Shown here one piece after another: positions 12,075-38,699 of a DNA stretch of 64,000 nucleotides (positions are counted from its first letter, which is position 1; every line of letters begins with the position of its first letter). The translations under genes were made by a program, and so were the position numbers. The notes beneath the pieces were generated by a model that saw only the letters and a list, made by a program, of their open reading frames with translations, was not told the DNA's origin and ran no database searches. The stretch comes from an uncultured Bacteroidia bacterium (lineage in GTDB: Bacteria; Bacteroidota; Bacteroidia; Bacteroidales; UBA932): the NCBI GenBank assembly GCA_902778855.1, contig CACYZM010000018.1:1-64000 (forward strand), in the 5' to 3' direction.

Positions 12075-12086
12075 GGCCGGGGTCGT

Positions 12087-12677: not shown

Positions 12678-12683
12678 CAAGGC

Positions 12684-14186: not shown

Positions 14187-14204
14187 ATTTTTGTATTTAG
14201 GTGG

Positions 14205-14221
14205 CAAATTTACTAAATTTG
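14205..14221. promoter_or_regulatory. Palindromic divergent double promoter
   Basis: CAAATTTACTAAATTTG is a perfect 8+1+8 palindrome in which each arm is a TAAATTTG box, one for the racemase-like gene (minus) and one for dacB (plus). The two boxes face away from each other one base apart, so both promoters cannot be occupied together. Confidence 0.65.
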
Positions 14222-14242
14222 TAAGACATATTGCAAGCGGAT

Positions 14243-16958: not shown

Positions 16959-16966
16959 TTTAATGG

Positions 16967-17018: not shown

Positions 17019-20012
17019 ATGCCGATGAAAAACACCCTTTGTTACAAGTGCCTGCTGCTGTTGTCAGCGCTGCTGATCACGCTGCCGGCGCTTGCCGTTC
17101 CGGGAGGACAGGACTTCCGGAACCGGGTCTCCGGTACGGTCGTCGACACCCAGAACGAACCCCTGATCGGGGTGACCGTTCACAACGAGGTGTCGGGACA
17201 GTACACGACGACCGACGTCGGCGGCAACTATGAGATTGCCGCCAAAGCCGGCGACCGCCTCACGTTCACCTGCATCGGAATGGAGACGCAGACCGTTGAC
17301 GTGGCCGGCCGCAGCCTGATCAACATCATCATGGCCAACGATGCCGAATTCCTGGAGGAAACCATCGTGGTCGGTTACGGTACCGCCAAGAAGATCAGTT
17401 CGGTGGTCGGTGCCTCCACGCTCGTCAAGTCCGACGCTTTCACCAAGATTCCGGCGGCCAGCGCCGGCGACGCCCTGCAGGGCAAGGTCGCCGGTCTGCA
17501 GGTCTACACCAGTTCCGGTGAGCCGAGCGCGACCGTGTCGATGCGCCTCCGTGGTGTCAACTCGATCAACGCCTCGAATACGCCGCTGTTCATCCTCGAC
17601 GGTACGCCGGTCGACGTGGCCATCTTCACGGCCTTGAACCCCAACGACATCGAGAACGTGACGGTGATGAAGGACGCATCCTCCACCGCCATCTACGGTT
17701 CCCGCGCCGCCAACGGCGTGGTGTACATCACCACGAAGAAGGGTACCGGCGAGAAGCCGACCGTGACGGTCAGCGGATCCTACGGTATCTCCAACCTGGC
17801 GCAGTTCCCGATGCCGCTGATGAACGCCGAGGAGTGGTTCGCCTTCCGCGAACTGGCCGATCCGAGCCTCAAGGAGAACGCCCAGTTCCAGGAGTTGAAG
17901 GACTTCCGCCTCAAGAACAACATCCATACGGACTGGCGCGAGTGGATCCTCAACGAGAATGCTCCGACCTGGAAGGCCGACCTGAGCGTCTCGGGCCGCA
18001 GCCAGCGCAGCGACTACTACATCTCGCTGGGCGCCTTCGACCGCCAGGGTATCGAGCCGTACTCCGATATGGAGCGCTACTCGGTCCGTTCGAACGTCAA
18101 CAGCAAGATCGCCGATTGGCTCAAGATCGGCATCAACCTGAACCTCACCTGGCAGTCGCACCATACGGCAGGCTATTCGACCACGAGCACGGGTTACTAC
18201 AACCCGATGAACATCGTGGCCTGGGGTCTTCCGTACGCCACGCCGTATGAGATCATCACCGACGCCAACGGCAATTTCATGGGTTACGGCGACGAGCCCG
18301 ACTACATCACCGACCTCGGTATGTGGAACTATTTCCGCCGGATGGAGGCCCAGCCCACCAAACGGCAGACGGCCCGCCTGAACGGCAACCTCTATCAGGA
18401 AATCACCCCGTTCAAGGGATTCACCATCCGCACCGTCCAGGCCATCGAAGGAATGGACTACCGCTACACCGGCAAGGTGCTTCCCAACAAGATCAACCTG
18501 GCGACCGTCACGGAAGAATCGTTCGAGCGCTTCTTCCGCCTGACCTCCACCAACACGGCCGAATACAAGTTCGCCATCGCGAAGGACCATCACTTCATCC
18601 TTCTGGCCGGCCACGAGTCGATCTACTCGCAGGACACCTATTTCTCCACCTGGACCAACGGCCAGACCGACGAGCGCCTGACCAACGTCAACCACGGTAC
18701 GCAGGCCAACCTGCCTTCGTACACCTTCTCGGAGACCGCCTACAACTCCTTCTTCTCCCGGTTCTCCTACGACTACGCCGACAAGTATTTCCTCGACCTG
18801 ACCTACCGTATCGACGGTTCCTCGCTCTTCGGCGCGAACCGCCGCTACGCCAGCTTCTGGTCGGTCGGCGCGATGTGGAACATCGGCAAGGAGAAATTCA
18901 TCCAGGATGTGGACTGGATCGACGCCCTGCAGCTGAAGGCCTCCTACGGTACGATGGGTAACTCGGGCATCAGCAACTACCGTGCGTACGGTCTGACCTC
19001 CACGGGCCGGCTCTACGACGGCCAGACCTCCTGGTACATCTCCTCGCTGAGCAACCCGAACCTGACCTGGGAAACCCTCGAGGCGCTCAACGTCGGCCTT
19101 AACGGCCGCCTGTTCAACCGCTTGAGCTTCAACGTCGAGTTCTACAACAAGAACACCCGCGACATGCTGATGTACATCCCGTATTCCTATATCTCCGGCT
19201 TCTCCGGCGGTTGGGGCAACGTGGGTTCGATGCGCAACCGCGGTGTCGACGTGGAACTGAAGTTCGACGTGGTCAATACCAAGGACTGGTATTTCGGCCT
19301 GGGCTTCAACATGAACTACAACAAGAACGTCATCACCGAGCTCTATGACGGCCGCGACGAATTCGTGGACGGCAGCTCCGGCCTGAAGTTCCAGGTGGGC
19401 CACGCCTACGGCGAGTTCTTCCTGGTCGACTTCGCCGGTGTCGACCCGGCCAACGGCAAGTCGCTCTGGCGCAACGCCGACGGCTCGCTCACCAGCACCT
19501 ACACGGAAAGCAACGCCGTGTTCCTCGGTAAGAACCGTTTCGCCCCCTGGTCGGGCGGCGCCTCGGTCGATGCCAGCTGGAAGGGCCTTTCCTTCAACGC
19601 CACCTTCTCGGGCGTGATCGGCAAGTATATGGAGAACTACGACCGCTACTTCGTGGAGAATCCCGCCTTCGCCGACGAGTCGAACATGACCAAACGGATG
19701 ATGAACATCTGGACGACGCCCGGCCAGATCACCGACATTCCGAAGGCCGGTGAAGCGGTGCGCCACGACAGCCGTTTCATCGACAACGCCTCGTTCGTCC
19801 GCCTGAAGAACGTCCAGCTCTCCTACGAGTTCCCGAAGAAACTGATGCAGAGCACCGGCTTCCTCGGCGGAGCGAAGATCTATGTATCCGGCCGCAACCT
19901 GCTGACCTTTACCAAGTACACAGGCTGGGACCCGGAAATCGACGCCATTACGGCCATGGGTAACTATCCGAACACGAAGCAGTACGTCTTCGGTGTCGAA
20001 TTGACATTCTAA
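17019..20012 (+). CDS. SusC/RagA-family TonB-dependent outer-membrane transporter
   Basis: A 997-aa outer-membrane channel that imports oligomers bound by its SusD partner, using TonB energy. After a signal peptide (to about residue 28) comes a carboxypeptidase-regulatory-like domain (about 35-105), a TonB-box-like stretch near residue 108 (LEETIVVGYGTAKK), the plug with RGVNSINASNTPLFILDG and KDASSTAIYGSRAANGVVYITT, and a 22-strand barrel ending YVFGVELTF. It lacks an STN domain, so anti-sigma signalling is unlikely. The first ATG (17019) and a second six bases on are both possible. It heads a same-strand locus reaching 35055. No TAnnTTTG box is visible between the upstream terminator and the start. 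Confidence 0.95.
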   Translation: MPMKNTLCYKCLLLLSALLITLPALAVPGGQDFRNRVSGTVVDTQNEPLIGVTVHNEVSGQYTTTDVGGNYEIAAKAGDRLTFTCIGMETQTVDVAGRSLINIIMANDAEFLEETIVVGYGTAKKISSVVGASTLVKSDAFTKIPAASAGDALQGKVAGLQVYTSSGEPSATVSMRLRGVNSINASNTPLFILDGTPVDVAIFTALNPNDIENVTVMKDASSTAIYGSRAANGVVYITTKKGTGEKPTVTVSGSYGISNLAQFPMPLMNAEEWFAFRELADPSLKENAQFQELKDFRLKNNIHTDWREWILNENAPTWKADLSVSGRSQRSDYYISLGAFDRQGIEPYSDMERYSVRSNVNSKIADWLKIGINLNLTWQSHHTAGYSTTSTGYYNPMNIVAWGLPYATPYEIITDANGNFMGYGDEPDYITDLGMWNYFRRMEAQPTKRQTARLNGNLYQEITPFKGFTIRTVQAIEGMDYRYTGKVLPNKINLATVTEESFERFFRLTSTNTAEYKFAIAKDHHFILLAGHESIYSQDTYFSTWTNGQTDERLTNVNHGTQANLPSYTFSETAYNSFFSRFSYDYADKYFLDLTYRIDGSSLFGANRRYASFWSVGAMWNIGKEKFIQDVDWIDALQLKASYGTMGNSGISNYRAYGLTSTGRLYDGQTSWYISSLSNPNLTWETLEALNVGLNGRLFNRLSFNVEFYNKNTRDMLMYIPYSYISGFSGGWGNVGSMRNRGVDVELKFDVVNTKDWYFGLGFNMNYNKNVITELYDGRDEFVDGSSGLKFQVGHAYGEFFLVDFAGVDPANGKSLWRNADGSLTSTYTESNAVFLGKNRFAPWSGGASVDASWKGLSFNATFSGVIGKYMENYDRYFVENPAFADESNMTKRMMNIWTTPGQITDIPKAGEAVRHDSRFIDNASFVRLKNVQLSYEFPKKLMQSTGFLGGAKIYVSGRNLLTFTKYTGWDPEIDAITAMGNYPNTKQYVFGVELTF

Positions 20013-20028
20013 TCAAGGAGGATACGCT

Positions 20029-21534
20029 ATGAAAAAGATATTATTCAGCCTTTGCACCCTCACGCTGCTGCTTGTGACGGCCTGCAACCTTGACCTGAAG
20101 CCCACGAGCTCGATCTCGACGGAAGAAGCGCTCCGTTCGATGGACGACGCGCAGAAACTCCGCCGCGACATCTATATCACGATGCGCAACAGCCTGAATT
20201 CGGGCGCGCCCGTCTACCTGATGGAACTGATGGCCGATTCGTTCCACGGCTCGATCACCTACGGCAACCGCAACGGTGAGTACTACAAGTGGGAGATGCG
20301 TTCCACGTTCGGCAACGTCGAATCCCTCTGGTCGAGCGCCTACTACCTGGTGATGCTGGCCAACTTCCTGGAAGGCGGCATTCCCGCCCTGCAGGCGGAA
20401 GCCTCCGCGGCCGAGAAAGCGCAGTACGACGTGATCCTGGGCGAAAGCGCCTTTGCCAAGGCGTATGCGATGTTCATCCTCACGGAACTCTTCTGCAAGA
20501 ACTACTCGTCCAACGCTTCGTCCGACTACGGCGTGATGCTCTCCGACGCGACGTTCGCCACGCCGAGCGACCAGTCCACGTATGTGGGCCGTAGCTCCTT
20601 GGCCGACACCTATGCCTACATCGAGAAGAACCTCGACAAGGCCGCCCAGCTCCTGGGCTCCGTGACCGGCGCCGAAGGTTCGATCTACCTTACGGCCGAC
20701 GCCGTGAAGGCCCTGCAGGCCCGCGTCGCCCTGACCAAGGGCGAATACGCCAAGGCCGCCGGCCTGGCCGCCGAACTGATCAATGGCGGCCGCTATCCGC
20801 TGCTCAACACGCAGGACGATTTCACCGCCCTGTGGACCAACGACAGCGGCAAGGAATGCATCACCCAGTTCTGGGCCAGCTTCGATTCGACGCCCAGTAC
20901 CAACGACTACGGGTACATCCAGTACACGGGCGGTCTCTATGCGCCGAACTACATTCCGGAGAAATGGATCGTCGAGTCCTATGACAAGAACGACCTGCGC
21001 TTCACGACCTGGTTCCGCCGGACCCAGGTCAACCTGGGCAACTTCTCGGGCACCGTCTATCTCTGCTTCAAGTTCCCCGGCAACCCGGCACTGATGGCCT
21101 CGACGGGCGCTTCGACCTACATCCAGAAGATCAAGCCGTTCCGCATCGCGGAGCAGTACCTGATCGCGGCCGAGGGCTACGCCATGGCCGGCCAGGCCGA
21201 CCAGGCCTGCACCTATCTGAACCTGCTTCGCGCCAGCCGCATCCCGGGCTACGCCGACCGCCACTACACCGGCGACGAGCTGATGGCCCAGATCAAACTG
21301 GAGCGTGCACGGGAACTCTACGGCGAAGGTTTCCGCTTCAAGGACCTCAAGCGTTGGAACCAGGGCTTCGCGCGCAGCGAGGCGCAGGACAAGAACCTGG
21401 TGATCGACGCGGGCAGCACCTACACGGAACTGCTCTCCCGCGATGCGTCCGATCCCTTCTTCGTATGGCCGATCCCGCAGGCCGAGATCGACTCCAATCC
21501 GCAGATCCGCAGCCAGCAGAACCCCGGTTATTAA
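20029..21534 (+). CDS. SusD/RagB-family nutrient-binding outer-membrane lipoprotein
   Basis: A 501-aa surface lipoprotein (Cys19 after LLVTA) forming the lid of the SusC channel. The alpha-helical TPR-type fold is indicated by the helical repeats between 100 and 260, and the conserved ending KLERARELYGEGFRFKDLKRWNQ, then FFVWPIPQAEIDSNP, is diagnostic of RagB/SusD. It is preceded by AAGGAGG seven bases before the ATG, a true Shine-Dalgarno match that is rare in this phylum and may raise expression relative to susC, 16 bp upstream. Confidence 0.95.
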   Translation: MKKILFSLCTLTLLLVTACNLDLKPTSSISTEEALRSMDDAQKLRRDIYITMRNSLNSGAPVYLMELMADSFHGSITYGNRNGEYYKWEMRSTFGNVESLWSSAYYLVMLANFLEGGIPALQAEASAAEKAQYDVILGESAFAKAYAMFILTELFCKNYSSNASSDYGVMLSDATFATPSDQSTYVGRSSLADTYAYIEKNLDKAAQLLGSVTGAEGSIYLTADAVKALQARVALTKGEYAKAAGLAAELINGGRYPLLNTQDDFTALWTNDSGKECITQFWASFDSTPSTNDYGYIQYTGGLYAPNYIPEKWIVESYDKNDLRFTTWFRRTQVNLGNFSGTVYLCFKFPGNPALMASTGASTYIQKIKPFRIAEQYLIAAEGYAMAGQADQACTYLNLLRASRIPGYADRHYTGDELMAQIKLERARELYGEGFRFKDLKRWNQGFARSEAQDKNLVIDAGSTYTELLSRDASDPFFVWPIPQAEIDSNPQIRSQQNPGY

Positions 21535-21553
21535 TCGATAAAGTGAACGTATC

Positions 21554-22960
21554 ATGAAAAAGATCATAAGCTTTTTTGCCGCCTGTCTGGTCGCCCTTTC
21601 CGCGCTGGTTTCCTGCGAACAGGATACCTACCTCTATCAACCGACCAACGAGTGCCTGACCTTCAGCGCCAACAGCGGGGCCTGGCTCTTCACAGACGAA
21701 CCCGTGATCGAGTTCCAGCTCATCCGGGGTGTGCTTACCTCCGACCTGACGGTCAACCTGACCCTCAGCGGTGACGGACTCTTCGCGCTGGAGACGCCCG
21801 CCCAGGTCCATTTTGCTCCGGGCGAGTCGTCGGCGACGGTCCGGGTCGGCTATGACGCCGACCAGGCCGAAGCGGGTGAGTCCTACAGCTTCACCGTGTC
21901 GTTCGACAAGGAGAAAGTCTCTCCCGCCGGCTGGAACGAGTTCTCCGGCATCCTGACGATGCCGGGCGGCGACGATTCCGAGTTCGTGGACTATGCCACG
22001 GTGGAATTCTACCAGGGTAAGATGAACAGCTCGGTCAGCTTGTTCGACGAGCAGTATTCGACGCTCCAGGTCTCCAAGTACGACAAGGAGAAATACCGCA
22101 TCCGCAATGCGATGAACTCGGGCATCGACCTCGACTTCACGCTGGGATCCGACGGTGTGGTCTACCTGCTCAACGAGACGGTCGAATGCCCGTACGACGG
22201 CGAGCAGTACATCAAGGTTCCGAGCACCATCGAGTACGAGGGCGAAATGGTTACCTTCTGGATCGACCCGAACCCGAAGTACAACAAGGTGGCCGAGAAC
22301 ATCGGTACCGGCGAGTACACCATGGACATGACGGCCGACGGCGGTACGTCCATCACCTGGTATGTGTGGATGGAAACCGCTTCACGCGGCATCCTGACCT
22401 TCGGTGACGGCGACGACGGCTGGTGGCGCATGTATTACGACGTGGTCAACCTGAACCCGCGTCCGAACCCCGACGCCGACTATATGAAGCTGGGCAAGGT
22501 GGAATTCTACCAGGGCAAGATGAACGCGAGCGTCACCTCCGAGAAGGTGCTCCATTCGCTGCTGCTGGTCAACAAGTACGATCCCGCCAAGTTCCGCATC
22601 AAGAACGCCATCAACTCGGGCATCGACCTCGACTTCACGATTTCCGCCGAAGGCGTGGTCTATCTGCTCAACGAGACGGAGGAATGCCCGTATGACGGCG
22701 AACAGTACATCAAGCTCCCGAGCTCCATCCTCTACGACGGGGAAGCGGTCACCTTCTGGATCGACCCGAACCCGAAGTACAACAAGGTGGCCGAGAACAT
22801 CGGCACCGGCCCGTACCTGATGGACATGACGCCCGACGGCGGCACCTCCATCACCTGGTACGTGTGGATGGAAACCGCTTCTCGCGGCATCCTGACCTTC
22901 AGCGATGACGACGACGGCTGGTGGCGTATGTACTACGACGTAACCGAAGTCTACTACTAG
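21554..22960 (+). CDS. Surface lipoprotein with duplicated C-terminal domain, probable glycan-binding protein of the locus
   Basis: A 468-aa lipoprotein (Cys21 after LSALVS) in the position where SusE/SusF-type surface glycan-binding proteins are normally encoded. Residues about 25-140 look like an Ig-like/Calx-beta domain with the strand pattern ITLxLSGDG...FAPGESSATVRV. Residues about 150-312 and 316-468 are two copies of one aromatic-rich domain; TFWIDPNPKYNKVAENIGTG and WYVWMETASRGILTF occur in each. Two copies suggest multivalent ligand binding. I do not recognise a named family for the repeat. It follows susD by 19 bases. Confidence 0.75.
   Translation: MKKIISFFAACLVALSALVSCEQDTYLYQPTNECLTFSANSGAWLFTDEPVIEFQLIRGVLTSDLTVNLTLSGDGLFALETPAQVHFAPGESSATVRVGYDADQAEAGESYSFTVSFDKEKVSPAGWNEFSGILTMPGGDDSEFVDYATVEFYQGKMNSSVSLFDEQYSTLQVSKYDKEKYRIRNAMNSGIDLDFTLGSDGVVYLLNETVECPYDGEQYIKVPSTIEYEGEMVTFWIDPNPKYNKVAENIGTGEYTMDMTADGGTSITWYVWMETASRGILTFGDGDDGWWRMYYDVVNLNPRPNPDADYMKLGKVEFYQGKMNASVTSEKVLHSLLLVNKYDPAKFRIKNAINSGIDLDFTISAEGVVYLLNETEECPYDGEQYIKLPSSILYDGEAVTFWIDPNPKYNKVAENIGTGPYLMDMTPDGGTSITWYVWMETASRGILTFSDDDDGWWRMYYDVTEVYY
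22001..22958 (+). repeat. Tandem 498-bp domain duplication inside the surface lipoprotein gene
   Basis: GTGGAATTCT begins at 22001 and again at 22499, and TGGAAACCGC at 22371 and 22869: a constant 498-bp offset, exactly 166 codons. Long DNA blocks are nearly identical, so the duplication is fairly recent or kept alike by gene conversion. Confidence 0.85.
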
Positions 22961-22962
22961 CG

Positions 22963-25900
22963 ATGGGAAGGATTGGCGCAAAGTTCTGGGCAGCCTGCCT
23001 GCTGCTGGCGGCGCTCCTTTCCTGCACGCCGGAAGGTGAACGGTATCTCTGCAACTACCGGGTTGCGGAGATATCGACCACCGACAGCACCGTCCTGGCC
23101 GGTTTCGCGGCCAGGAACGGGCTGTCGGACGGCGTCCATCGCGACCTGATGAGCCATTGCCTGGTGCTTCAGAAGAACGGCGAGAAGATCTGCATCATCT
23201 CCAACGACCTGATGGAGGTCGGCATCGAGACGGCCGACGAGATCCGGAAAGCCATTTCCGAACAGTCCGGCCTGCCGATGGACCACATCCTGATGCACTG
23301 CATCCACACGCACTCCGCGCCGCGGACCGGCGGCTGGTGCGCCAAGGAAGGCCAGCCCAACTACGCGTACGCGCAGAAAGTGCGCCGCGTGGTGGTGGAG
23401 AACGCCGTGGCGGCGATTGCCGACGATGCGGCGTTCCGCCCCTTCGAGATGGAATTCGGCCAGGGCACGAGCGACATCAACTACAACCGCTGCGACAAGG
23501 ACGGCTTCTGCAACAAGGACGCCTACGTGCTGCGGCTGGTGGACCCGAAGAGCCGCAAGCCCATCGTGTCGATGGTCAACTATTCGTGCCATCCGGTGAG
23601 CCTCGGCCCCGGCAGCTACAAGGTCTCGACCGATTTCCCGGGCTTCTCCTGCGATTCGCTCTCGAAGGCCTGGGGCGGGGAAGTGGTGCACTTCACCTCC
23701 GCCAGCGGCAACGCCGACCCGGCCTACGGCATCAAGAAGGATGTCGAGGCCGCCGAGCGCAACGGCTGGCAGCTGGCAACCGACCTGAAGGACATCTCCT
23801 TCCGGAAGATTCCCTTCGACGGGAGCTTCACCCTGAAGACCAGTCGGATCGACCTGCCTTACCGGGCCGACACCATCACGGTCGACCTGATCCGGCAGCA
23901 CGTGGCCGAGGTGACGCAGTGGAAGAACACGGTCTCCGCCTCGTGGGTGGACGACGTGAACTACTGGGCCAAATACACCATCGAGGACATCGAGGCCGGC
24001 CTGGTGGAGAACACGCTTCCGTTCTATGTGGAGGCGGTCAACCTGGGCGGCGTCGTGCTCTTCTTCACGCAGGGCGAGCCCTTCATGGAGTACCAGGTGG
24101 CCCTCCGCGAGCGTTTCCCGGATACCCCGCTGCTGTTCATCGCCTATACCAACGGCCAGAATTCCTATCTGCCGAGCAAGACGGCCTTTGAAGACACCAG
24201 CGGCAAGTACGACTACGAGGTCAAGCAGATGCACGTCTATATCGGCGCCCCGTATCCGCTGTCCGAACGGATGCCCGACGTCTATCTTGACGGCATCACC
24301 GACATCGTGCGGGAAGTCCTTCAGCCTGCAGAAAGCGGGCTGACATCTTCTATCATCCCCAAGCCCCTTCATTTCGAGGGGGCTTCGGGTTGCTTTACGT
24401 TCGGAAAAGGCGGCGCCGTGGCCGTGGAGGCCACGGACCCGCTTTTCCGCGAGGTTGCCGGCGATTTCGCCGCGACCCTCCGGCTGCCCGTTGCGCAGGC
24501 GGGCAATGTCACGATCCGGCAGGTGGACGGCCTCGCGACCGAGGCCTACCGGCTGACCGTTTCTCCCGAAGCCGTCACCATCGAGGCTTCCGCCCCCAAC
24601 GGGGCTTTTTACGGCACGCGGAGCCTGCTCCAGCTGCTTCCGCCGCAGGCGATGCAGCGGGGCGCTGCCGGCTGCACCGTGCCTTGCTGCCGCATCGACG
24701 ATGCGCCCGCGATGGAATACCGGGCCATCATGGCCGACGTGGCGCGCCATTTCCAGAGCCGCGAAGAGATCGAGAAAGTCATCGACATCCTGGCCCTGCA
24801 CAAGATCAATACGTTCCACTGGCACCTGACCGACGACCAGGGCTGGCGGATTGAAAGCAAGAAATATCCCGACCTGGTGAAAGCCGGGCCCTATTATACG
24901 CAGGAAGACCTGCGCGCGGTGGTGGAATACGCCCGCCGCCGCTATGTGACGGTCGTGCCGGAAGTCGAACTGCCCGGTCACGCTCTGGCCGCCCTGTCGG
25001 CCTATCCCGTCTTTTCCTACCACCCTGATTCGACGATCGCCATCGCGACCGATCTGGGCATCTACGACGAAATCTTCTGTCCGAGCGACACCACCTATAC
25101 TTTCTTCACCGATATCTTCGGCGAACTCTTCGACATCTTCCCGTCGAAATACTACCACATCGGCGGCGACGAATGCCCGCCCGACGACGGCAGTCAGGCC
25201 GCATTCATCGTCCGCATCACGGAATTCCTCCAGGCCCACGGCAAAGAGGTGATCGCCTGGGACGAAGTGGTGGACCGCGGCGCCACGCCCGGCACCATCG
25301 CGCTCTCGTACCGCGGCCACGCGCCCGGCAGGCGGGCGCTGGACAAAGGCATGCGGACGGTCTTCACGCCGAACCGCTGGTGCTATCTCGACTATTACCA
25401 GGAGGAAGGCGACGGGTATCCGTCCCAGCCGTATTTCCTTCCCCTGTCCAAGGTATACAACTATTATCCGATCAGCGATACGGTCTCCGCGGCGGTGCGG
25501 CCGCGCATTCTGGGCGTCGAGGGCTGTCTCTGGACCGAATTCGTGGAGACGCCGGAGCATTTCGAACATATGCTCTTCCCCCGCGCCCTGGCGCTGGCCG
25601 AGACGGGCTGGACGCCCAAGTACGACCGGAATTACGCCGATTTCTGCCGCCGGCTCCTGACCGACCTGCCGCGGCTGGATGATGCCGGCGTCCATTACAG
25701 CCGGGCTTTCGGGAACGTGCTTTTCATGCACGATGATTTCGAAGAAGACCGTTACGACAACGACCGCCTGAATCTCCAGTTCGATTATCCTGACGGGGAA
25801 ATCCGCTATACCACCGACGGCTCCGTCCCGACCCGGTCATCCCGCCTGTATACCGGCCCGGCCGGCCGGATTGCGCCGGGTACGACCGTCAAGGCGCAGG

Positions 25901-27516: not shown

Positions 27517-28315
27517 GTACGACAACTTGGAAAAGAAATCCGTGATGGAGATCATCACGGACATCAACAACGAAGACAAGACGGTGGCCTATGCCATCGA
27601 AAAGGTGCTGCCCGACCTGGAGCGGCTCATAACGGCGATTGAAAAGCAGCTGAAGGCCGGCGGCCGGATGTTTTACGTCGGCTGCGGCACCGGCGGCCGC
27701 CTTTCGGTCCTCGACGTGGTGGAACTCCCCAATACCTACGGCATCGATCCGGAAATGATCCAGACGGTGCTGGCCGGCGGCGTGGAGAACCTGGTGCTGG
27801 CTCTGGAAGAGGCCGAGGACGACATCGAGGAAGGGTGGCGCACGCTGGTGGAAAAGCACCACGTCACCCCGAAGGACATCGTGGTCGGTATCTCGGCCAG
27901 CGGCACGACGCCCTACGTGCTCCATACGCTGCGGCACTGCCGGGAAAACGGCATCCCGACCGGCAGTTTCGTCAACAATCCGCAGTCGCCCATTTCCGAG
28001 TATTCGGACTATCCCGTCGAGGTGATCACGGGCACGGAATACATCACCGGCAGCACCCGGATGAAATGCGGCACCGCCCAGAAGATGATCTGCGACATGA
28101 TCAGTTCGACCGTCCTGATCCGGCTGGGCCGGATCGAGGGCAACCGCATGGTCAACGTCCGCCTGATCAACGACAAGGTGGTGGACCGTTCCGTCCGGAT
28201 GTTTATGGAACGCAACCCGTCGATCACCGATTACGAGTACGTGAAGGAGATCATCGTCAAGACCGGCACCGTCAAGAAGGCGGAGGCCTATCTCAAGGAA
28301 AAAGGAGAACTATGA
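27491..28315 (+). CDS. murQ: N-acetylmuramic acid 6-phosphate etherase
   Basis: A 274-aa cytoplasmic lyase that removes the D-lactyl ether from MurNAc-6-P, giving GlcNAc-6-P. The family opening TEQPSKYDNLEKKSVMEIIT, the SIS-domain loop GCGTGGRLSVLD, the proposed catalytic glutamate Glu78 in VVELPNTYG, ISASGTTPYV, and TGSTRMKCGTAQKM are all present. Length is slightly under the E. coli enzyme (298 aa). It begins within the end of the GH20 fusion gene and shares ATGA with the downstream kinase, so translation of all three is linked. Its presence is the clearest sign that the locus handles MurNAc. Confidence 0.92.
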   Translation: MRLTEQPSKYDNLEKKSVMEIITDINNEDKTVAYAIEKVLPDLERLITAIEKQLKAGGRMFYVGCGTGGRLSVLDVVELPNTYGIDPEMIQTVLAGGVENLVLALEEAEDDIEEGWRTLVEKHHVTPKDIVVGISASGTTPYVLHTLRHCRENGIPTGSFVNNPQSPISEYSDYPVEVITGTEYITGSTRMKCGTAQKMICDMISSTVLIRLGRIEGNRMVNVRLINDKVVDRSVRMFMERNPSITDYEYVKEIIVKTGTVKKAEAYLKEKGEL

Positions 28316-29151
28316 TTCTGATTGCAGACAGCGGTGCCACCACCACCACGTGGTGTGCCCTGGACCGCGGCAGCGTTGTCGCCCGGTTCGAGAGCGAGGG
28401 GTATAACCCCAATTACATCACGCTCGACTATATGGTGGCAGATATTCGCAAAGCCCTACCAGCGGACTTCGAACCCCGGGCTGTGGATCACGTGTATTTC
28501 TACGGTGCGGGCGTGACGGAACTGCAGTACGGTTTCGTGCGCGAAGCGATCGCGCAGGTGATGCCGAATGCGGAGACCTTTGTGGCGATGGACCTGCTGG
28601 CTTCCGCGCGGGCCCTGCTCGGCCACAAGGCCGGTTTCGCAGCCATCCTGGGCACGGGTACCAACAGCTGTCTGTATGACGGCGAGCGGATCACGCTCAA
28701 CATCGACTCCCTGGGCTTCATCCTCGGCGACGAAGGAAGCGGCGCCTATATGGGCAAGCGGATGCTCGTCGATTACGTTCGCGGCCGGGTTTCCGACGCG
28801 GCGCGCAGCGTGATCGAGGCGGCCGTTCCCTACAACGGCGACGAGATCATCGATATCATTTACACCAAGCCGTTCCCGAACCGCTTTTGCGGGCAGTACG
28901 GCAAACTGATTCACGACAATCTGTCGATCCCGTATTTCCACGACCTGGCCGAAGATTCCTTCTGCCAGCTGTTCGAGCAGATCATATCCCTGTATCCCGA
29001 CTACCGGTCCTACGCGTTCAACTGCGTGGGCTCGGTCGGCTGGTATTTCCAGGACATCCTCAAGCCCGTCGTCCGCCGCTACGGGATGGAGGTGGGGACG
29101 CTGCTCCGGACGCCGATGGAAGGCTTGATTCACTATCATCAGGAAGATTAG
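28312..29151 (+). CDS. BadF/BadG-type N-acetylglucosamine / N-acetylmuramate kinase
   Basis: A 279-aa ASKHA-fold sugar kinase. ADSGATTTTWCAL is the phosphate-1 motif, ILGTGTNSCLYDG phosphate-2, and GFILGDEGSGAYMGK is typical of GlcNAc kinases of this family. Start ATG 28312 overlaps the murQ stop in ATGA. In oral Bacteroidota a kinase of this type (MurK) is encoded beside murQ and phosphorylates MurNAc; adjacency here points the same way, although GlcNAc may be a co-substrate. The product would be the substrate of MurQ. Confidence 0.85.
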   Translation: MILIADSGATTTTWCALDRGSVVARFESEGYNPNYITLDYMVADIRKALPADFEPRAVDHVYFYGAGVTELQYGFVREAIAQVMPNAETFVAMDLLASARALLGHKAGFAAILGTGTNSCLYDGERITLNIDSLGFILGDEGSGAYMGKRMLVDYVRGRVSDAARSVIEAAVPYNGDEIIDIIYTKPFPNRFCGQYGKLIHDNLSIPYFHDLAEDSFCQLFEQIISLYPDYRSYAFNCVGSVGWYFQDILKPVVRRYGMEVGTLLRTPMEGLIHYHQED

Positions 29152-29154
29152 CTT

Positions 29155-31653
29155 ATGAAAAGACTGTGCTTATTGCTGCTGGCCGCCCTGGTCGCGTTCC
29201 CGACCGGGTCGGAAGCCTGTACGACCGCCATCGTATCGGCCGAAGCCAGCGCGACCGGCCGGCCGCTGATCTGGAAACAGCGCGACACCGAGAATCCCCA
29301 CAACGTCCTTCAGTATGTCACGGGGGGGCAGTATGCCTACACGGCGGTGTTCAACGCCTCCGACAAGAAGCGTCGGAGCGCTTATGCCGGCGCCAACGAA
29401 GTGGGCTTCGTCATTATGAACAATCTTTCCTACAATCTGGCCGAAGGGACGTATGAGTCTGTCGTGAACGGGCGCGTCATCTCGGAAGCGCTGGCCACGT
29501 GCCGGACGTTGGAAGACTTCGAGCGGATGCTGGAGGAATGGCCGAAGCCTCGTAAGATCGAGGCGAACTTCGGTGTGGCCGACGCCTTCGGCGGCATCGC
29601 CTATTTCGAGGTGGGCGACACGAAGGTGGTCCGTTTCGACGTGGAGCCCGGCAGCTGGCTCGTGCGCACCAATTTCTCGCTGGCCGGCAGGGACGGGGAG
29701 GGCTCCGGCATGGCCCGCTATGAGACGGCGGAGTACCTGATGTCGCAGCACACCGGCAAGTTCACGCCGGAATTCCTGATCGACGGGCTGGGCCGCAGTT
29801 TCTACAACGCGGAGCTGGGCGCCGATATGCAGGCCGCTTCGCCGGCGGGCGTGGCGGTCGACCTCGACTTCATTCCGCGCTATACTTCGGTGTCGAGCGT
29901 CTGCATCGAGGGCGTCGGCCCGGGCGACGATCCGGCTTCCGCCGTTCTCTGGACGGCCATCGGCTATACGCCGACGTGCTATGCCGTACCTGTCTGGGTC
30001 GCGGGCGGGGAGGAGATTCCCGCTTTCCTGCTGCCCGATCCGCAGACGGAGACCGGTTATGCGCCGGCGAATGCGCTGGCCGAAGAACTGATGCATTATG
30101 TCCATCCGGCCGACCGCGACGCGAAGTCGAAATACATCGATTTCCGCCGGCTTAACCCCGTTCTGGCAGCCGTCCGGGCGGCGGAGGCCGCGGAAGTCGC
30201 GGCCGGCCGCGAACTGGGCGGCCGGATGCGCCGCACGGGCTTCGACGCCGAAGCCGTGCGCCGCTACAACCGCGAAGCGGAAAGCCGCTTCGCTGCTTTC
30301 CGGACCGCCATGGATCCGAAAGCGCTTGAACAGGCCTTTGTGGGTCCTGAACGGGACCAGACCGTGACGCCGGCGCTGCTGGACCGCCTTGCCGCAAAGG
30401 CGAAGGACGTCCCGGAACGGGTCGGCGACCGTTTCCTGACGCAGGATCTGTACAAGGCTTCGCTCAATCAGGCCGTCGCCGCGGCGATGGATACGACGTG
30501 CACGTATTTCGTTCCCTCGCGGGGCATTACCGACCAGGATGAGTCGGGCCGCTGCTGGCTGTTCTCGACGCTCAACATCCTGCGGGCCGAAATGATTGCC
30601 CGCTACGATCTGGGCCCGTTCCAGTTCTCCCAGACCTTCGGCCAGTTCTACGACATCCTGGAGAAGGCCAACCGCTGCCTGGAAAATGTCATCGCCCATC
30701 GCAATGAGCCGATGGAAAGCCGCTACAACACCTGGCTCTTCAACAAGCCGATCGGCGACGGCGGCCATTTCGCCAATGCGGCCCACATCATCGCCAAATA
30801 CGGCATGGTGCCGCAGGAGGTGATGCCCGAACGCTTCAGCAGCACCGACAACGTGTCGCTGATGAAGACCGTCACGCGGCTGCTCCGCCGCTACGGCCTG
30901 GAGCTGCGCGATGCTTCCGCCGAGGAGGTCCAATCCGTCAAGGAGCAGGCCCTGGCCGACATCTACCGCCTGCTGGTCGCCACGCTGGGCGAACCGCCGC
31001 AGGAATTCGACTATACGCTGCGCGACAAGAACGGCCGCGTGCTCTCGGTGGCGCATTATACGCCGCAGTCGTTCCGCGATATCTATATCCCGCACGACCT
31101 GGAGGCCGACTACGCCATCTTTATGGACGATCCCACGCTGCCGTATTACCGGATGTACGAAGTGGCGGAGAGCCGCAACTGCTACGAGTACGCCAACTGG
31201 CGTTTCCTGAATGTGCCGATGTCCGACATCCGGAAGATGGGTGTCGCCTCGCTCGCGGGCGGCCGCCGTTTCTACATCTCGGCTGATACGATGCACGATT
31301 ACCTGATGACGGAGGGCATCTATGATACGGAGCTCTTCGCGCTGGATTCGCTGCTGGGCATCCACACCGATATGCCGAAAGAAATGCAGGTCCGCAGCGC
31401 GGAGACGCGATCGGTCCACGCCATCGCCGTGGCCGGCGTGAAACTCGATGCGGCCGGCGAACCCGTGAAATGGGTGATCGAGAACAGCTACGGCCTGGTC
31501 CGCGGCTGGGGTGGCTACGTGGCCGCCACCGATCCCTGGCTCCAGAAGTATCTCTATCGCCTGGTCGTGGAGAAACGCTTCGTGGACGACAAACTGCTGA
31601 AGCTCTTTGAAGGGCCGGTGGAGACGCTTCCGGCCTGGTATCCCAATTATTGA
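29155..31653 (+). CDS. Exported fusion: Ntn-hydrolase (C45/AAT-like) + bleomycin-hydrolase-type peptidase C1B
   Basis: An 832-aa protein. The signal peptide (residues 1-21, ending GSEA) would, when removed, expose Cys22 of CTTAIVSAEASATGRPLIWKQRD, the N-terminal nucleophile expected for acyl-CoA:6-APA acyltransferase/linear-amide hydrolase (C45-like) enzymes; this domain spans about 22-400. Residues about 430-830 match aminopeptidase C/bleomycin hydrolase: Cys467 in ESGRCWLFSTLN, His755 in SVHAIAVAG and Asn777 in WVIENSYG make a complete triad. Bleomycin hydrolases are usually separate proteins, often cytoplasmic. The pairing suggests stepwise cleavage of amide-linked groups from a glycoconjugate or peptide. 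It is three bases after the kinase gene. Confidence 0.85.
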   Translation: MKRLCLLLLAALVAFPTGSEACTTAIVSAEASATGRPLIWKQRDTENPHNVLQYVTGGQYAYTAVFNASDKKRRSAYAGANEVGFVIMNNLSYNLAEGTYESVVNGRVISEALATCRTLEDFERMLEEWPKPRKIEANFGVADAFGGIAYFEVGDTKVVRFDVEPGSWLVRTNFSLAGRDGEGSGMARYETAEYLMSQHTGKFTPEFLIDGLGRSFYNAELGADMQAASPAGVAVDLDFIPRYTSVSSVCIEGVGPGDDPASAVLWTAIGYTPTCYAVPVWVAGGEEIPAFLLPDPQTETGYAPANALAEELMHYVHPADRDAKSKYIDFRRLNPVLAAVRAAEAAEVAAGRELGGRMRRTGFDAEAVRRYNREAESRFAAFRTAMDPKALEQAFVGPERDQTVTPALLDRLAAKAKDVPERVGDRFLTQDLYKASLNQAVAAAMDTTCTYFVPSRGITDQDESGRCWLFSTLNILRAEMIARYDLGPFQFSQTFGQFYDILEKANRCLENVIAHRNEPMESRYNTWLFNKPIGDGGHFANAAHIIAKYGMVPQEVMPERFSSTDNVSLMKTVTRLLRRYGLELRDASAEEVQSVKEQALADIYRLLVATLGEPPQEFDYTLRDKNGRVLSVAHYTPQSFRDIYIPHDLEADYAIFMDDPTLPYYRMYEVAESRNCYEYANWRFLNVPMSDIRKMGVASLAGGRRFYISADTMHDYLMTEGIYDTELFALDSLLGIHTDMPKEMQVRSAETRSVHAIAVAGVKLDAAGEPVKWVIENSYGLVRGWGGYVAATDPWLQKYLYRLVVEKRFVDDKLLKLFEGPVETLPAWYPNY

Positions 31654-31667
31654 TCCATTTCCGCCCT

Positions 31668-34112
31668 ATGAAAACCCGGTTCTTTTCCCTGGCCGCCCTG
31701 ATCCTGTTGCTGGCTGCCTGCGGACAGCCCAAGACGGAGGCTCCCGCGCCCCTGATCCACGCCACTTATTCGGTCTATTCCCGGCTTGTGCCCGAGGAAC
31801 TGACGGTCGATCAGCTCAAGAACTACCAGTACTATTATTTCCAGGCCATGCCGTCCTGGCAGCCCGAGGAATTCGATGCGCCGCTCGAAGACATCCTCCG
31901 CGACAAGGTGGACAACCACGTGTACGGCGAAGTGGCGGAGCCGCGGATCAACCAGTATATCGGGCTGATCCACGAAGCCGGCAACCAGATTTACCTCTCG
32001 TTCTCCGGCACGCGGTACAACCAGATTACCGACGATCCGGCACGCCGCACGAAGTTTGCCGTCTATATGGCCGCTTTTGCGCGGCACCACGGTTTCGATG
32101 GCCTGGAGCTTGACTGGGAGCACACCGTCACGAAAGAGACGCACCTGGCCCTGATGCAGGACATTCGCGCCGCGCTCGACAGCCTCGGCGCCCTCGACGG
32201 CCGCCGCTACGGCCTGACGACGGCGCTCAACAGCGAGCACAATTATTCGCAGGAAGAAGCTGACGCCCTGTCCGCCTGCTGCGACTGGGTGAACATCATG
32301 TACTACGACATGGGCGGCGGCTGGTGGGGCAAATGCGGTACGCACAACACGCCGCTGCCCGACATCAAGGCGAACTATGAGGCCAACTGGAGCCGTTTCG
32401 CGCCGGAGAAGATCCATATCGGTCTGGCCAGTTACGGATATCGCTACGACGGTCTCGCGCCGGGCGAAACGCCCCCCGAGGGAAAGCGGCTTTCGGACTG
32501 TGCCGGCGATTTCTTCTATCCCGACCTGCCCGGTCTGCTGAAAGCCGGCTGGACGGAAGAATGGGACGATGAGGCGCAGTGCCCGTACTATTTCTCGCCC
32601 GACCACTCGTCTTTCGTCTCGGCCGACAATGCGCGTTCCATCGCCGCCAAGATGGCCTGGGTGAAGGAGAAAGGATTCGGCGGCGTCTTCTGGTGGGAGT
32701 ACCACTGCGACTATCTCCCTTCCGAAGGCCGTCACCTGCTGATGGACTGCATCGAGGAACCGGACCTGCCGATGTTCTGGACCTGGATGGAGGAAGAGGA
32801 AGGCCGCGATATGGAGAAAGCCTTCGCCCATATGGAAGAAGCGGGACTCGATGCCGTAATGCTGCACGCACCTGACGCCGAAGCCTACGAACGCTATATC
32901 GAAATGGCACATCGCCACGGCATCGCCGTCTATGCCTGGGTATGGACGCTCAAGCCGCCGTATGAAGACAGGGCTGCATTGCTGGAAGCCCATCCCGACT
33001 GGTTCGACGTGAACCGTAACGGCGAGAGCCTGGTCGATCACAAGGCCTATGTCAATTCCTACAAGTTCCTGAATCCCGCCATTCCGGAAGTACAGGATTA
33101 TCTGGTGGAGAAAGTCCGTTCGATCTGCGCCATCCCGGGCATCGAAGGCATCTGCATCGACTACTGCCGTCTGGTGGACTGCGTGCTGCCGATGTCGCTC
33201 TCGTATATCTATGGCATCGTTCAGGATGGGGAAGTCAAGCCGGAATACGATTACGGCTACCATCCCGCGATGCTCGCGCGCTTTCAGGCCGAATACGGCT
33301 ATGATCCGCGCACGCAGCCCGATCCCTCCCGGGATCCGAACTGGTGCCGCTTCCGCTGCGACGAGGTGACGGAGGCTGCCAACCGGATGGCCCACGAGGC
33401 CCACGCGGCCGGCAAGAAGGTGACGGCTTCGCCGTTCGCCACGGAGCGGGTTTCGGAGTTCATGGTCTTCCAGCGTTTCCACGACTGGGACCTTGACTTC
33501 GTGTTCCCGATGGTCTATACCGACTTCTATACGCAAGACCCGCAGTTCGCTTACGATGCGACGGTGATGAACAACCGCGACAAGAATCCGCGCACCACGC
33601 TGTTCTGCGGTCTCGATACGGAACTCGGCGGCCCGGCCGAAGCCATCTTCGAGAAGATGGACAATGCGTTCCGCGCCGGGGCGCAGGGCATTTCGCTCTA
33701 CACGAGCGAAGGCTTGAAATCGCCGCGGCTGCGTCGGCAATTCAAGGCCTATGCCGACCGGATGCGTGCCGAACGGGCGGCCGGTAACGGACGGATCTCG
33801 TTCGAAGCGGCGTCTGCCGCCGATCTCGATCCCTTCGCCCATCCCGGCCTGGTGGCGAATGTGGAATACGCCATCAAGCGCCTGGTGGCCGGGGAACCGG
33901 TGCATGCGGAAACCGTCAATGGCATGGCGCCTGCCGTGCCGGGCAAGGCCTATCCGGCGCTCGACCTGGGACCGTATGAGAAACTGCCCGGATCGGAGCG
34001 GCTGGCGTGCTATTCCGTGACGGACCGCGCGAGCGGCAAGTCTTTTGATGTGGTGTTCGTCGTCCTGGGCGACGTGATCTGGGGATGGGACGTCCGCCCC
34101 CGGGAGGAATGA
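31668..34112 (+). CDS. Lipoprotein fusion: GH18 glycosidase + GHL10/DUF187-type glycosidase
   Basis: An 814-aa lipoprotein (Cys18 after LLLAA). Residues about 30-360 are a GH18 barrel with FDGLELDWEHT, catalytic Glu151, and the later NIMYYDMG motif; GH18 enzymes include chitinases and endo-beta-N-acetylglucosaminidases. Residues about 370-680 resemble the GHL10 (COG1649/DUF187) barrel: HGIAVYAWVWTLKPP, HPDWFDVNRNG, NPAIPEVQDYLVEKV and GIEGICIDYCRL. E. coli DigH, a GHL10 enzyme, cuts peptide-free peptidoglycan strands. The two barrels may attack different linkages of one polymer. ATG 31668 begins the signal peptide; an in-frame TTG 18 bases upstream is rejected. Confidence 0.82.
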   Translation: MKTRFFSLAALILLLAACGQPKTEAPAPLIHATYSVYSRLVPEELTVDQLKNYQYYYFQAMPSWQPEEFDAPLEDILRDKVDNHVYGEVAEPRINQYIGLIHEAGNQIYLSFSGTRYNQITDDPARRTKFAVYMAAFARHHGFDGLELDWEHTVTKETHLALMQDIRAALDSLGALDGRRYGLTTALNSEHNYSQEEADALSACCDWVNIMYYDMGGGWWGKCGTHNTPLPDIKANYEANWSRFAPEKIHIGLASYGYRYDGLAPGETPPEGKRLSDCAGDFFYPDLPGLLKAGWTEEWDDEAQCPYYFSPDHSSFVSADNARSIAAKMAWVKEKGFGGVFWWEYHCDYLPSEGRHLLMDCIEEPDLPMFWTWMEEEEGRDMEKAFAHMEEAGLDAVMLHAPDAEAYERYIEMAHRHGIAVYAWVWTLKPPYEDRAALLEAHPDWFDVNRNGESLVDHKAYVNSYKFLNPAIPEVQDYLVEKVRSICAIPGIEGICIDYCRLVDCVLPMSLSYIYGIVQDGEVKPEYDYGYHPAMLARFQAEYGYDPRTQPDPSRDPNWCRFRCDEVTEAANRMAHEAHAAGKKVTASPFATERVSEFMVFQRFHDWDLDFVFPMVYTDFYTQDPQFAYDATVMNNRDKNPRTTLFCGLDTELGGPAEAIFEKMDNAFRAGAQGISLYTSEGLKSPRLRRQFKAYADRMRAERAAGNGRISFEAASAADLDPFAHPGLVANVEYAIKRLVAGEPVHAETVNGMAPAVPGKAYPALDLGPYEKLPGSERLACYSVTDRASGKSFDVVFVVLGDVIWGWDVRPREE

Positions 34113-34113
34113 A

Positions 34114-35055
34114 ATGAGAATCTATCGTTGGTTATTGATCCTATGTGCTTCGCTGGGCCTGGTCGCTTGCCAGGATCCCGAAGACGGGCCGCGTCATCTG
34201 ACGCCGGAAGAGATTGAAAAATACAAGCAGGAGCAGACGCTCAAGATCGACAAGTACGTGGAGTACCGGAAGGGAACCTGCCCGATCATCCTGACCGTCC
34301 CGCACGGCGGCACGGTCGTCGAATCGTTCCTGACCCTCCGTAACACGGGCAACTGTCCGGACCCGGATTTCGCCACCGACCTCGACTACAACACGCGGGA
34401 GCTGGCCGATGAAATCGACAAGGCCTTCTTCCAGCAGACGGGGAAGCATCCCTATATGGTCATCGCGCTGATCAAGCGCAACCACGTGGATTTCAACCGG
34501 AAACGCCAATATGCGATTCCGGCGGGCGACGACAATGTGGGAAAAATCTACGATGCGTACCACGCCTATATCACCACCGCCCGCAATGAGGTCACGCAGC
34601 AGTACGGTCACGGCCTGCTGCTCGACATCCACGGCCAGAGCCACTCCGAGGACATCGAGCTGGGCTACCTGCTTCCGCCCTCGACGCTGGACCTGTCGGA
34701 TGCCAAGCTCGACAGCGGCACATATGTCTCCTCGTCCAGCATTCCGCATCTGGTCCGCACCAACAAGGCCGGCCACTCGTTCTCCCAGATGCTCCGGGGG
34801 AAAGACTCGTTCGGCGGCTTCCTCAACCGCAACGGGCTGGAATGCGTTCCGCGTCCCGGCTACCTCTCGCCCGGCAACAACCCGTACTTTTACGGCGGCT
34901 ATACGACCCGCACCTACGGCTCCTACGGCGGCGGCGTGGTCGACGCAATCCAGTGCGAGTTCCGCTACTCCTACCGCGACACCCAGTCCGAACGCGTCCG
35001 TGCCGCCGCCGCCTTCGCCAAATCCATCACCGAATTTACCCAGGCGGCCTGGTAG
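34114..35055 (+). CDS. N-formylglutamate amidohydrolase-superfamily lipoprotein
   Basis: A 313-aa exported protein (lipobox Cys19, LGLVAC) with the N-formylglutamate amidohydrolase (FGase) fold: TVPHGGTVVE, RNHVDFNRKRQY and LLDIHGQSH supply the expected metal and substrate residues. True FGases act in cytoplasmic histidine degradation; a lipoprotein version must act on an external amide, perhaps an N-acyl amino acid or wall peptide. It starts one base after the GH18 stop and is the last gene of the locus. No terminator hairpin is obvious before the rplU promoter about 50 bases on. Confidence 0.78.
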   Translation: MRIYRWLLILCASLGLVACQDPEDGPRHLTPEEIEKYKQEQTLKIDKYVEYRKGTCPIILTVPHGGTVVESFLTLRNTGNCPDPDFATDLDYNTRELADEIDKAFFQQTGKHPYMVIALIKRNHVDFNRKRQYAIPAGDDNVGKIYDAYHAYITTARNEVTQQYGHGLLLDIHGQSHSEDIELGYLLPPSTLDLSDAKLDSGTYVSSSSIPHLVRTNKAGHSFSQMLRGKDSFGGFLNRNGLECVPRPGYLSPGNNPYFYGGYTTRTYGSYGGGVVDAIQCEFRYSYRDTQSERVRAAAAFAKSITEFTQAAW

Positions 35056-38614: not shown

Positions 38615-38634
38615 AGAGGTTTGGATTTGTCCTA

Positions 38635-38642
38635 CAAATTTA
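38635..38642 (-). promoter_or_regulatory. Promoter -7 box for the C69 peptidase (TAAATTTG)
   Basis: Minus-strand TAnnTTTG match, 20 bases before the ATG; 24 bases from the divergent serS box. Confidence 0.6.
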
Positions 38643-38666
38643 AGAAAAACAAAGATTGATTTTTTA

Positions 38667-38674
38667 TATATTTG
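38667..38674 (+). promoter_or_regulatory. Promoter -7 box for serS-ruvC (TATATTTG)
   Basis: Plus-strand TAnnTTTG match, 25 bases before the serS ATG. Confidence 0.65.
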
Positions 38675-38699
38675 CAGGATTAACGAAAGGAATTGCCAG

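Follow-up and report, generated by a model that had tools for sequence, protein, structure and literature searches.

In Bacillus subtilis, muropeptides are reportedly rescued by NagZ, AmiE, NamZ, MurP and MurQ: N-acetylglucosamine (GlcNAc) and peptide are said to be stripped outside the cell, followed by import of N-acetylmuramic acid (MurNAc) and the action of MurQ. A nine-gene cluster of an uncultured Bacteroidia bacterium, described here, may follow the same logic with other parts, namely GH20 domains, a ceramidase-like domain, SusC/SusD and a kinase in place of the GH3, GH171, amidase and phosphotransferase system of B. subtilis. The cluster spans positions 17019–35055 of a 64,000-nucleotide stretch (hereafter the window; assembly GCA_902778855.1, contig CACYZM010000018.1) from a genome of 2.4 Mb on 79 contigs that is 98% complete; the nearest named relative is the goat-omasum metagenome-assembled genome (MAG) RGIG2727 (locus L061).

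The closest printed precedent that we found is a predicted murein polysaccharide-utilization locus (PUL) in the Urechidicola symbiont of Idas mussels (PMC10199937), where, in the part of the paper that describes it, susCD pairs are accompanied by murQ and a deoR regulator; deoR likewise occurs in some relatives of our locus. Compared by gene content, that PUL has GH3, GH171, ampG, ampD, dacA and nagB, whereas the present locus has two GH20 domains, a ceramidase-like amidase and a BadF/MurK-family kinase, and GH171, ampD, ampG and GH3 are absent from its nine genes. The murTKQ and ampG operon of Tannerella forsythia (PMC5388701, PMC5790795, PMC10465942) shares with the locus the kinase and etherase families and, on our reading, the use of MurNAc, and it is similar to a canonical gene set elsewhere in the genome of the window (L051; L183). 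However, SusC/SusD have 0 occurrences in the text of PMC5388701, no GH20 or ceramidase domain is named in the relevant parts of these papers, and the MurK pocket is the canonical one. PMC5790795 places the transporter MurT in the sodium symporter superfamily in its introduction and among the major facilitators in its discussion; the sodium symporter assignment differs from the NagP/GluP-like major facilitator superfamily (MFS) protein of several locus relatives. The initial annotation of the window knew of no described locus with this exact set. We likewise found no description in the open-licence literature of the architecture or of the diverged kinase–etherase pair reported below, nor a characterised Sus-type locus for bacterial cell walls, but a predicted murein PUL with susCD and murQ was already in print (PMC10199937). 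The locus offers some chance of new biochemistry, which is open to testing.

The nine open reading frames (ORFs) all lie on the + strand, as the initial annotation had described, and are joined by 16, 19, −40, −26, −4, 3, −4 and 1 bases in order (−40 to +19 overall). Its domain assignments also held when Pfam and NCBIfam profiles were applied at curated cut-offs; those for the ceramidase, the BadF kinase and TIGR00274 fell below their cut-offs and are backed by structure or PDB matches. The genes are as follows:

17019–20012, + strand: SusC-type TonB-linked outer-membrane transporter (TIGR04056, 750 bits against a cut-off of 368)
20029–21534, + strand: SusD-type surface lipoprotein (PF07980, E 1.8e-30)
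21554–22960, + strand: internally duplicated lipoprotein (no Pfam or NCBIfam match)
22921–27516, + strand: lipoprotein, exported as judged by sequence, with a neutral-ceramidase-like amidase, GH20A (CHB_HEX_C_1 match) and GH20B
27491–28315, + strand: MurQ-like SIS etherase, in a clade of its own (MurQ subfamily PRK05441; 4s12 match)
28312–29151, + strand: BadF/MurK-family sugar kinase, likewise in a clade of its own (8oqw and 1zxo matches)
29155–31653, + strand: C45-like Ntn-hydrolase fused to a C1B (bleomycin-hydrolase/PepC-type) cysteine peptidase (PF03051, E 3.4e-96), predicted to be exported
31650–34112, + strand: GH18 + GHL10 protein (PF00704, E 4.4e-40; PF02638, E 7.3e-13), predicted lipoprotein
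34114–35055, + strand: N-formylglutamate-amidohydrolase (FGase)-like protein (PF05013, 34.7 bits against 28.9), predicted lipoprotein

With its adjacent susC/susD pair and carbohydrate-active enzymes on one strand, the cluster has the composition of a PUL. The listed start of the ceramidase–GH20–GH20 ORF is a GTG at 22921, and the in-frame ATG at 22963, 2 bases past the preceding stop, is the likely start of the gene; the kinase gene starts at 28312. The GH18–GHL10 ORF has an in-frame ATG at codon 7. No regulator was found among the 10 flanking ORFs scanned in the window, whereas relatives carry DeoR or sigma/FecR genes, and the nine genes include no transporter of the kind represented by the MFS protein in several relatives.

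The 249 genomes of the same taxonomic family were searched with MurQ and, blind to MurQ, with the ceramidase-like domain. MurQ gave some match in 160 genomes and a close form (68–100%) in 13, the other listed matches reaching at most 51%. Around the 13 close MurQs, including that of the window, tblastn showed MurQ adjoined by a ceramidase-like domain and GH20 in 12 cases, while the contig of G200 ends inside GH20B. At least two GH20 domains, with SusC upstream or nearby, accompany MurQ in 11 of these 12; G003 has one GH20 and its sole SusC match lies past the MFS gene. The ceramidase-like domain matched 35 genomes, 13 of which form a full-length clade (at least 44%). MurQ-like is linked in 12 of these 13, and the sequence of the thirteenth, G196, ends in the GH20 gene. 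Apart from this clade and G241, which has only ceramidase-like fragments at a contig edge, 21 weak matches remain, and the three such loci inspected (L138–L140) contain no MurQ. In each of the 12 family genomes that could be assessed, both kinase and etherase homologues were present once adjoining stretches were included. Elsewhere in the order, distant ceramidase-like matches of at most 30% identity occur in 22 of 393 genomes besides the window.

A wider scan of genome contigs from 84,980 species, using a ceramidase-like profile (A1) built from 12 MurQ-linked members, returned 66 loci, all with titles that denote members of Bacteroidia; in many cases the title mentions a sample from rumen, omasum, goat, buffalo, yak or horse. 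Carriers include Hallella multisaccharivorax DSM 17128, Prevotella sp. KH2C16, Proteiniphilum and Alistipes sp. An66. As 11 of the 66 contigs are, judged by their lengths, shared with the family set, the two sets of counts overlap. A MurQ-like gene (at least 57% identity) is present in 54 of the 66 loci; among the 12 without one, 7 have less than 4 kb downstream and L122 gave no ceramidase match in the counting search. Homologous loci that regularly lack murQ and the kinase had been named in the initial annotation as evidence against its proposal. The MurQ-like gene is in fact found in 49 of the 53 loci with at least 5.5 kb downstream, and a MurK-like match falls inside the 10-kb flank for 17 of the 66, the kinase often lying beyond it, as in the longer stretches of G103, G176 and G231. 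As a baseline, in genomes of the genus covered by both the MurQ and the GH20 searches, inspection by eye found every GH20 outside the locus to be more than 10 kb from any listed MurQ; the nearest was about 35 kb away, on one contig. These sequence comparisons support the view that this locus type includes the MurQ-like and MurK-like genes as integral parts.

The common gene order opens with a regulator (DeoR, or sigma with FecR) and continues with SusC, SusD, ceramidase-like, GH20A, GH20B, MurQ-like, an accessory slot, MurK-like and MFS. The slot holds a DUF4015/LTD protein, a BACON protein and a transglutaminase-like protein, which are missing in some loci; gene order varies in L100, L104, L108 and L120. 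The Hallella locus is near-minimal, with a sigma factor, a gene in the usual FecR position, SusC, SusD, ceramidase–GH20, GH20, MurQ-like, MurK-like and MFS. The window form adds the lipoprotein, the triple fusion, Ntn–C1B, GH18–GHL10 and the FGase-like gene, and appears as a derived member of this recurring SusC/SusD locus type. The ceramidase-like domain is fused to GH20A in several genomes and to both GH20s in the window clade. The MFS gene lies between kinase and Ntn–C1B in G188 and G052 (L057, searched with Pfam, is the same contig as G052), but not in the window, where the next gene begins 3 bases past the kinase, nor in G034. A search for the fusions and the gene order, as had been proposed, found the core order again, whereas the full Ntn–C1B fusion and a near full-length GH18–GHL10 occur in just the same 5 of 249 family genomes. 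Given this rarity, the two are judged to be recent additions to a core of ceramidase, GH20, MurQ-like and MurK-like genes, and the window-specific fusions were rejected as the key feature. Separate genes for Ntn and C1B recur in L093, and also in G096, where they lie at the end of a contig.

Accessory genes were surveyed with Pfam on representatives of 9 non-core clusters among gene clusters 0–35; those scanned add, in some loci, further N-acetylhexosamine (HexNAc)-type or amide/peptide hydrolases (GHL10, DUF4015, GH18 relatives, transglutaminase-like, C1B, Ntn and M20). Stand-alone GHL10 relatives (53–64%) of the GH18–GHL10 protein were also seen (L178 9565, L179 5223, L180 9407, L181 3170); they belong to four locus-carrying genomes but lie on other contigs than the locus itself.

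The etherase of the locus matches the MurQ subfamily PRK05441 and PDB entry 4s12 (E 3.3e-55), and stays under the equivalog cut-off of TIGR00274 (249.1 versus 302 bits). In the MurQ tree, 53 locus-type and 49 canonical sequences are split at a single branch of length 0.86 with 100/100 support. Glu78 and Glu106, the expected catalytic residues of MurQ, are kept in all 60 locus-type sequences, a set that includes copies on shared contigs; by family homology and both glutamates the protein would be classed as a MurNAc-6-phosphate etherase. The canonical motifs GTSGR, DASE[CI]PP and AASG are, however, replaced by GTGGR, VVELPN and SASG in the window, and the 60 sequences have GTGG[RKH] (one GSGG), E[LVI]PN (59/60) and SASG. 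All 23 canonical MurQs of the family and the other listed canonical matches keep GTSGR, DASE[CI]PP (one DASELPP) and AASG. Compared at 90%, the groups have 10 positions fixed differently and 70 conserved alike. A 58% relative in another order of Bacteroidia (G761) adjoins an MFS gene and GH20 with no adjacent kinase; in this stretch (L170 9847–14347) the diverged-clade MurQ relative lies beside a NagP-like MFS gene and a divergently transcribed GH20-like gene (31%).

That MurQ relatives can switch reaction is shown by NagS, another diverged branch of the family (PMC12680351), and the Ser-x-Ser motif of the locus clade may match Ser119/Ser121 of NagS. The locus protein could accordingly be a GlcNAc-6-phosphate dehydratase like Streptomyces NagS, which we consider very unlikely. 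NagS is confined to Streptomycetaceae according to the part of PMC12680351 on its distribution, it seems to differ at the first glutamate, with its catalytic Arg64 falling at locus Glu78 by rough residue spacing rather than by alignment, and the window protein is 41–53% identical to canonical Bacteroidota MurQs.

The kinase shows the same kind of divergence. It matches PDB entries 1zxo (E 9.4e-61) and 8oqw (E 1.9e-54) and remains under the cut-off of BadF PF01869 (23.5 versus 31.5); by homology and an invariant catalytic Asp (D94), with D94, N118 and D140 all kept, it belongs with MurK. The kinase tree separates 18 locus from 20 canonical sequences at 100/100, at a split where the program warns that long branches meet. 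The locus kinases carry N34 (18/20), Y35, M93, D132 and S133 (20/20 each) where canonical residues differ. The numbering of 8oqw fits the Tf_MurK residues of PMC10465942, which, in its account of the pocket, ties these positions to the acetamide and lactyl groups of MurNAc. Of the 17 pocket columns, four are fixed and different in the locus, against 16 of the 261 other columns (p 0.025); confined to columns that the locus conserves, the comparison is 4/13 to 16/75 (p 0.33) and the enrichment is gone. The argument from the pocket, strong at first sight, was therefore given less weight, as these control columns yielded modest enrichment and canonical kinases themselves vary at some pocket positions. 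The residue changes thus do no more than suggest an altered kinase specificity.

Contig C7 of the same genome carries a canonical MurQ (43% identical to the locus MurQ-like protein) and a kinase (39% to the locus kinase), and the notion that the locus gene is the single murQ of the genome was rejected on this account. The same arrangement in G004 reads PnuC, kinase, MurQ, RecR and an SSF symporter; on C7 the symporter match (TIGR00813) is below cut-off, and the two remaining neighbours have corresponding lengths (220 and 204 residues). Contig C38 (L183 7901–12780) encodes in a row NamZ, which corresponds to ybbC, an MFS protein that resembles AmpG in a motif, and a DUF4922–SpoIID protein. NamZ_N has three matches in the genome, all on contigs other than that of the locus, and NagB and NagA are over cut-off. 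The C38 genes resemble lytB-ampG-ybbC as set out for T. forsythia (PMC5388701) and constitute a canonical salvage system apart from the locus. Judged from the sequences, the kinase–etherase pair of the locus is a diverged copy of the canonical pair. The initial statement that its MurQ acts on MurNAc-6-phosphate by known family function is not supported in that form, in view of the separate 100/100 clades, the changed active-site motifs and the canonical pair elsewhere. The presence of MurK and MurQ homologues might also reflect ordinary cell-wall recycling, in which the cell salvages its own turnover products and not foreign food. This is very unlikely, as SusC/SusD and the lipoproteins suggest that material is taken up from the surroundings, the genome has canonical salvage genes elsewhere, and the close MurQ form occurs in only 13 of 249 family genomes.

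The ceramidase-like domain scores 25.4 against a gathering threshold of 32.1 for PF04734. In Foldseek its predicted model matched neutral ceramidase 2zws (E 1.4e-19, TMq 0.58) and also 4wgk. The domain contains HTHS, CHPVS and TQGEP motifs, and the His and Glu motifs HTH, CHP and QGEP, presumably zinc ligands, are invariant across the 12 sequences of profile A1; the model thus points to the neutral ceramidase fold with zinc-ligand-like motifs. The same protein has two copies of GH20 with domain 2, both with HIGGDE and matching 6q63, and GRCW and DGLELDWE are found in C1B and GH18, respectively; all of these are catalytic motifs. The C45/AAT-like N-terminal part of the Ntn–C1B protein is matched weakly by PF03417 and NF040521, and the protein matches 4k7c (E 1.3e-59). 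The FGase-like protein has no PDB relative at E ≤ 1. In the duplicated lipoprotein, which is probably a glycan-binding surface protein, inspection by eye shows part of the first half recurring in the second. AlphaFold predicts it as mainly beta at low confidence (pLDDT 62.9, pTM 0.38), and G140 has a shorter homologue (28–30% identity).

Two beta-HexNAc hydrolases, a ceramidase-fold amidase, hydrolase accessories and a MurQ-family etherase make a peptidoglycan fragment the most economical substrate, and we lean, if by little, towards the locus being a PUL for peptidoglycan-derived fragments that scavenges muramyl sugars. Soluble GlcNAc-muramyl(-peptide) fragments would be bound by SusC/SusD and the duplicated lipoprotein. 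Both GH20 domains would work outside the cytoplasm, taking off beta-HexNAc units, as would the fused ceramidase-like amidase, which would split off a group held by an amide bond; on the simplest assumption this group is the stem peptide carried by the lactyl moiety of the muramyl sugar. No other amidase belongs to the core, which makes this domain the leading candidate for an otherwise missing step. In the window lineage, Ntn–C1B and the FGase-like protein may trim freed peptides and GH18–GHL10 may make internal cuts. The muramyl sugar would enter the cytoplasm via the NagP/GluP-like MFS protein in several relatives, or another transporter in the window, be phosphorylated by the locus kinase and lose its 3-O-ether to the MurQ-like enzyme, giving GlcNAc-6-phosphate for NagA and NagB of the genome. 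The sugar may be plain MurNAc or a modified muramyl unit. Gene order, families, conservation, the separate clades and the presence of NagA and NagB are read directly from the DNA; substrate, compartments, order of steps and peptide removal by the ceramidase-like domain are what we infer. The stripping and import proposed initially is thus supported in part, by the integral MurQ/MurK-like genes and by a core that cuts beta-HexNAc links and, by fold, amides, but not in its stated MurQ substrate, and the window cluster contains no transporter gene for the import.

Several observations weigh against this proposal. The canonical MurK–MurQ pair with its symporter and the NamZ cluster mean that plain MurNAc use is already covered, and the kinase pocket and etherase motifs of the locus differ from those of that pair. 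Among peptidoglycan-specific domains, no NamZ, AmpD/amidase, NlpC/P60, lytic transglycosylase or LysM was found in the nine genes or in the accessory genes scanned, which are part of all accessory clusters. The four exceptions among the 53 loci, L096, L112, L115 and L121, horse-associated MAGs by title, keep the ceramidase domain with no MurQ within 7–10 kb downstream; L121 is a ceramidase fragment at a contig edge, and no GH20 was seen in L112, L115 and L121. The nearest beta-hexosaminidase of known structure to GH20B is 6q63, a B. theta enzyme linked to N-glycans. A GH92 gene, presumably of a mannosidase family, recurs near 7 of 70 clustered loci, mostly on the opposite strand (e.g. L070 427–3069, −).

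The last of these observations also favours the main rival, according to which the substrates are GlcNAc glycans without muramyl units (N-glycan cores, chito-oligosaccharides or poly-N-acetylglucosamine), the kinase being a GlcNAc kinase, the MurQ-like protein having a new role and the ceramidase-like domain cutting GlcNAc-Asn or an N-acyl amide. GH20s are general beta-hexosaminidases, the transporter of relatives is NagP/GluP-like, and an invariant kinase Asp (20/20) stands where charged residues block the lactyl group according to the pocket analysis of PMC10465942. Nevertheless, GlcNAc-6-phosphate requires no etherase, both MurQ glutamates are invariant (60/60), the kinase and MurQ-like genes are kept together in all 12 assessable family genomes, and no fucosidase, sialidase or galactosidase families were found among the recurring clusters scanned, a part of all clusters. 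We view this alternative, including its role for the ceramidase-like domain, as possible but on the unlikely side. Within the peptidoglycan proposal, it is doubtful, though worth stating, that the conserved core is a full peptidoglycan-sugar route whose enzyme families are not known to serve in one, namely a zinc amidase of the ceramidase type, two GH20s and a re-tuned kinase–etherase pair. The amidase might then free the stem peptide and the GH20s split GlcNAc and muramyl linkages, an equally doubtful division of labour, and the pair might, just as tentatively, be re-tuned for a peptide-bearing, de-N-acetylated or lactam muramyl unit and not for free MurNAc.

At the borders of the cluster, a consensus-based promoter-like match at 16930–16959 (10 of 12 positions; 1 found, 0.2 expected) overlaps the end of the upstream ORF. 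The DNA 3′ of the cluster translates by eye as the start of what we take to be a ribosomal L21-like protein, and the cluster therefore appears to end at 35055. A C69 dipeptidase (36935–39184, − strand) and an S13 D-Ala-D-Ala carboxypeptidase (14231–15736, + strand) lie near the locus, probably by coincidence. A 1102-residue ORF at 10908–14216 (+ strand) has no Pfam match whatever. Possibly a different system is seen in another genus of the family (L139 5332–11655; L140 10506–16510), where about 4–5 kb separate a distant ceramidase-like gene (25%) from a MurK-family kinase (36–37%) and MurQ is absent.

In rumen, omasum and hindgut, bacterial cell walls plausibly make up a large supply of food. 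The recurrence of the locus across Bacteroidales of animal guts, named strains included, makes the question of its substrate testable, and the diverged MurK/MurQ pair provides a concrete lead to what may be a new sugar-phosphate substrate or reaction.

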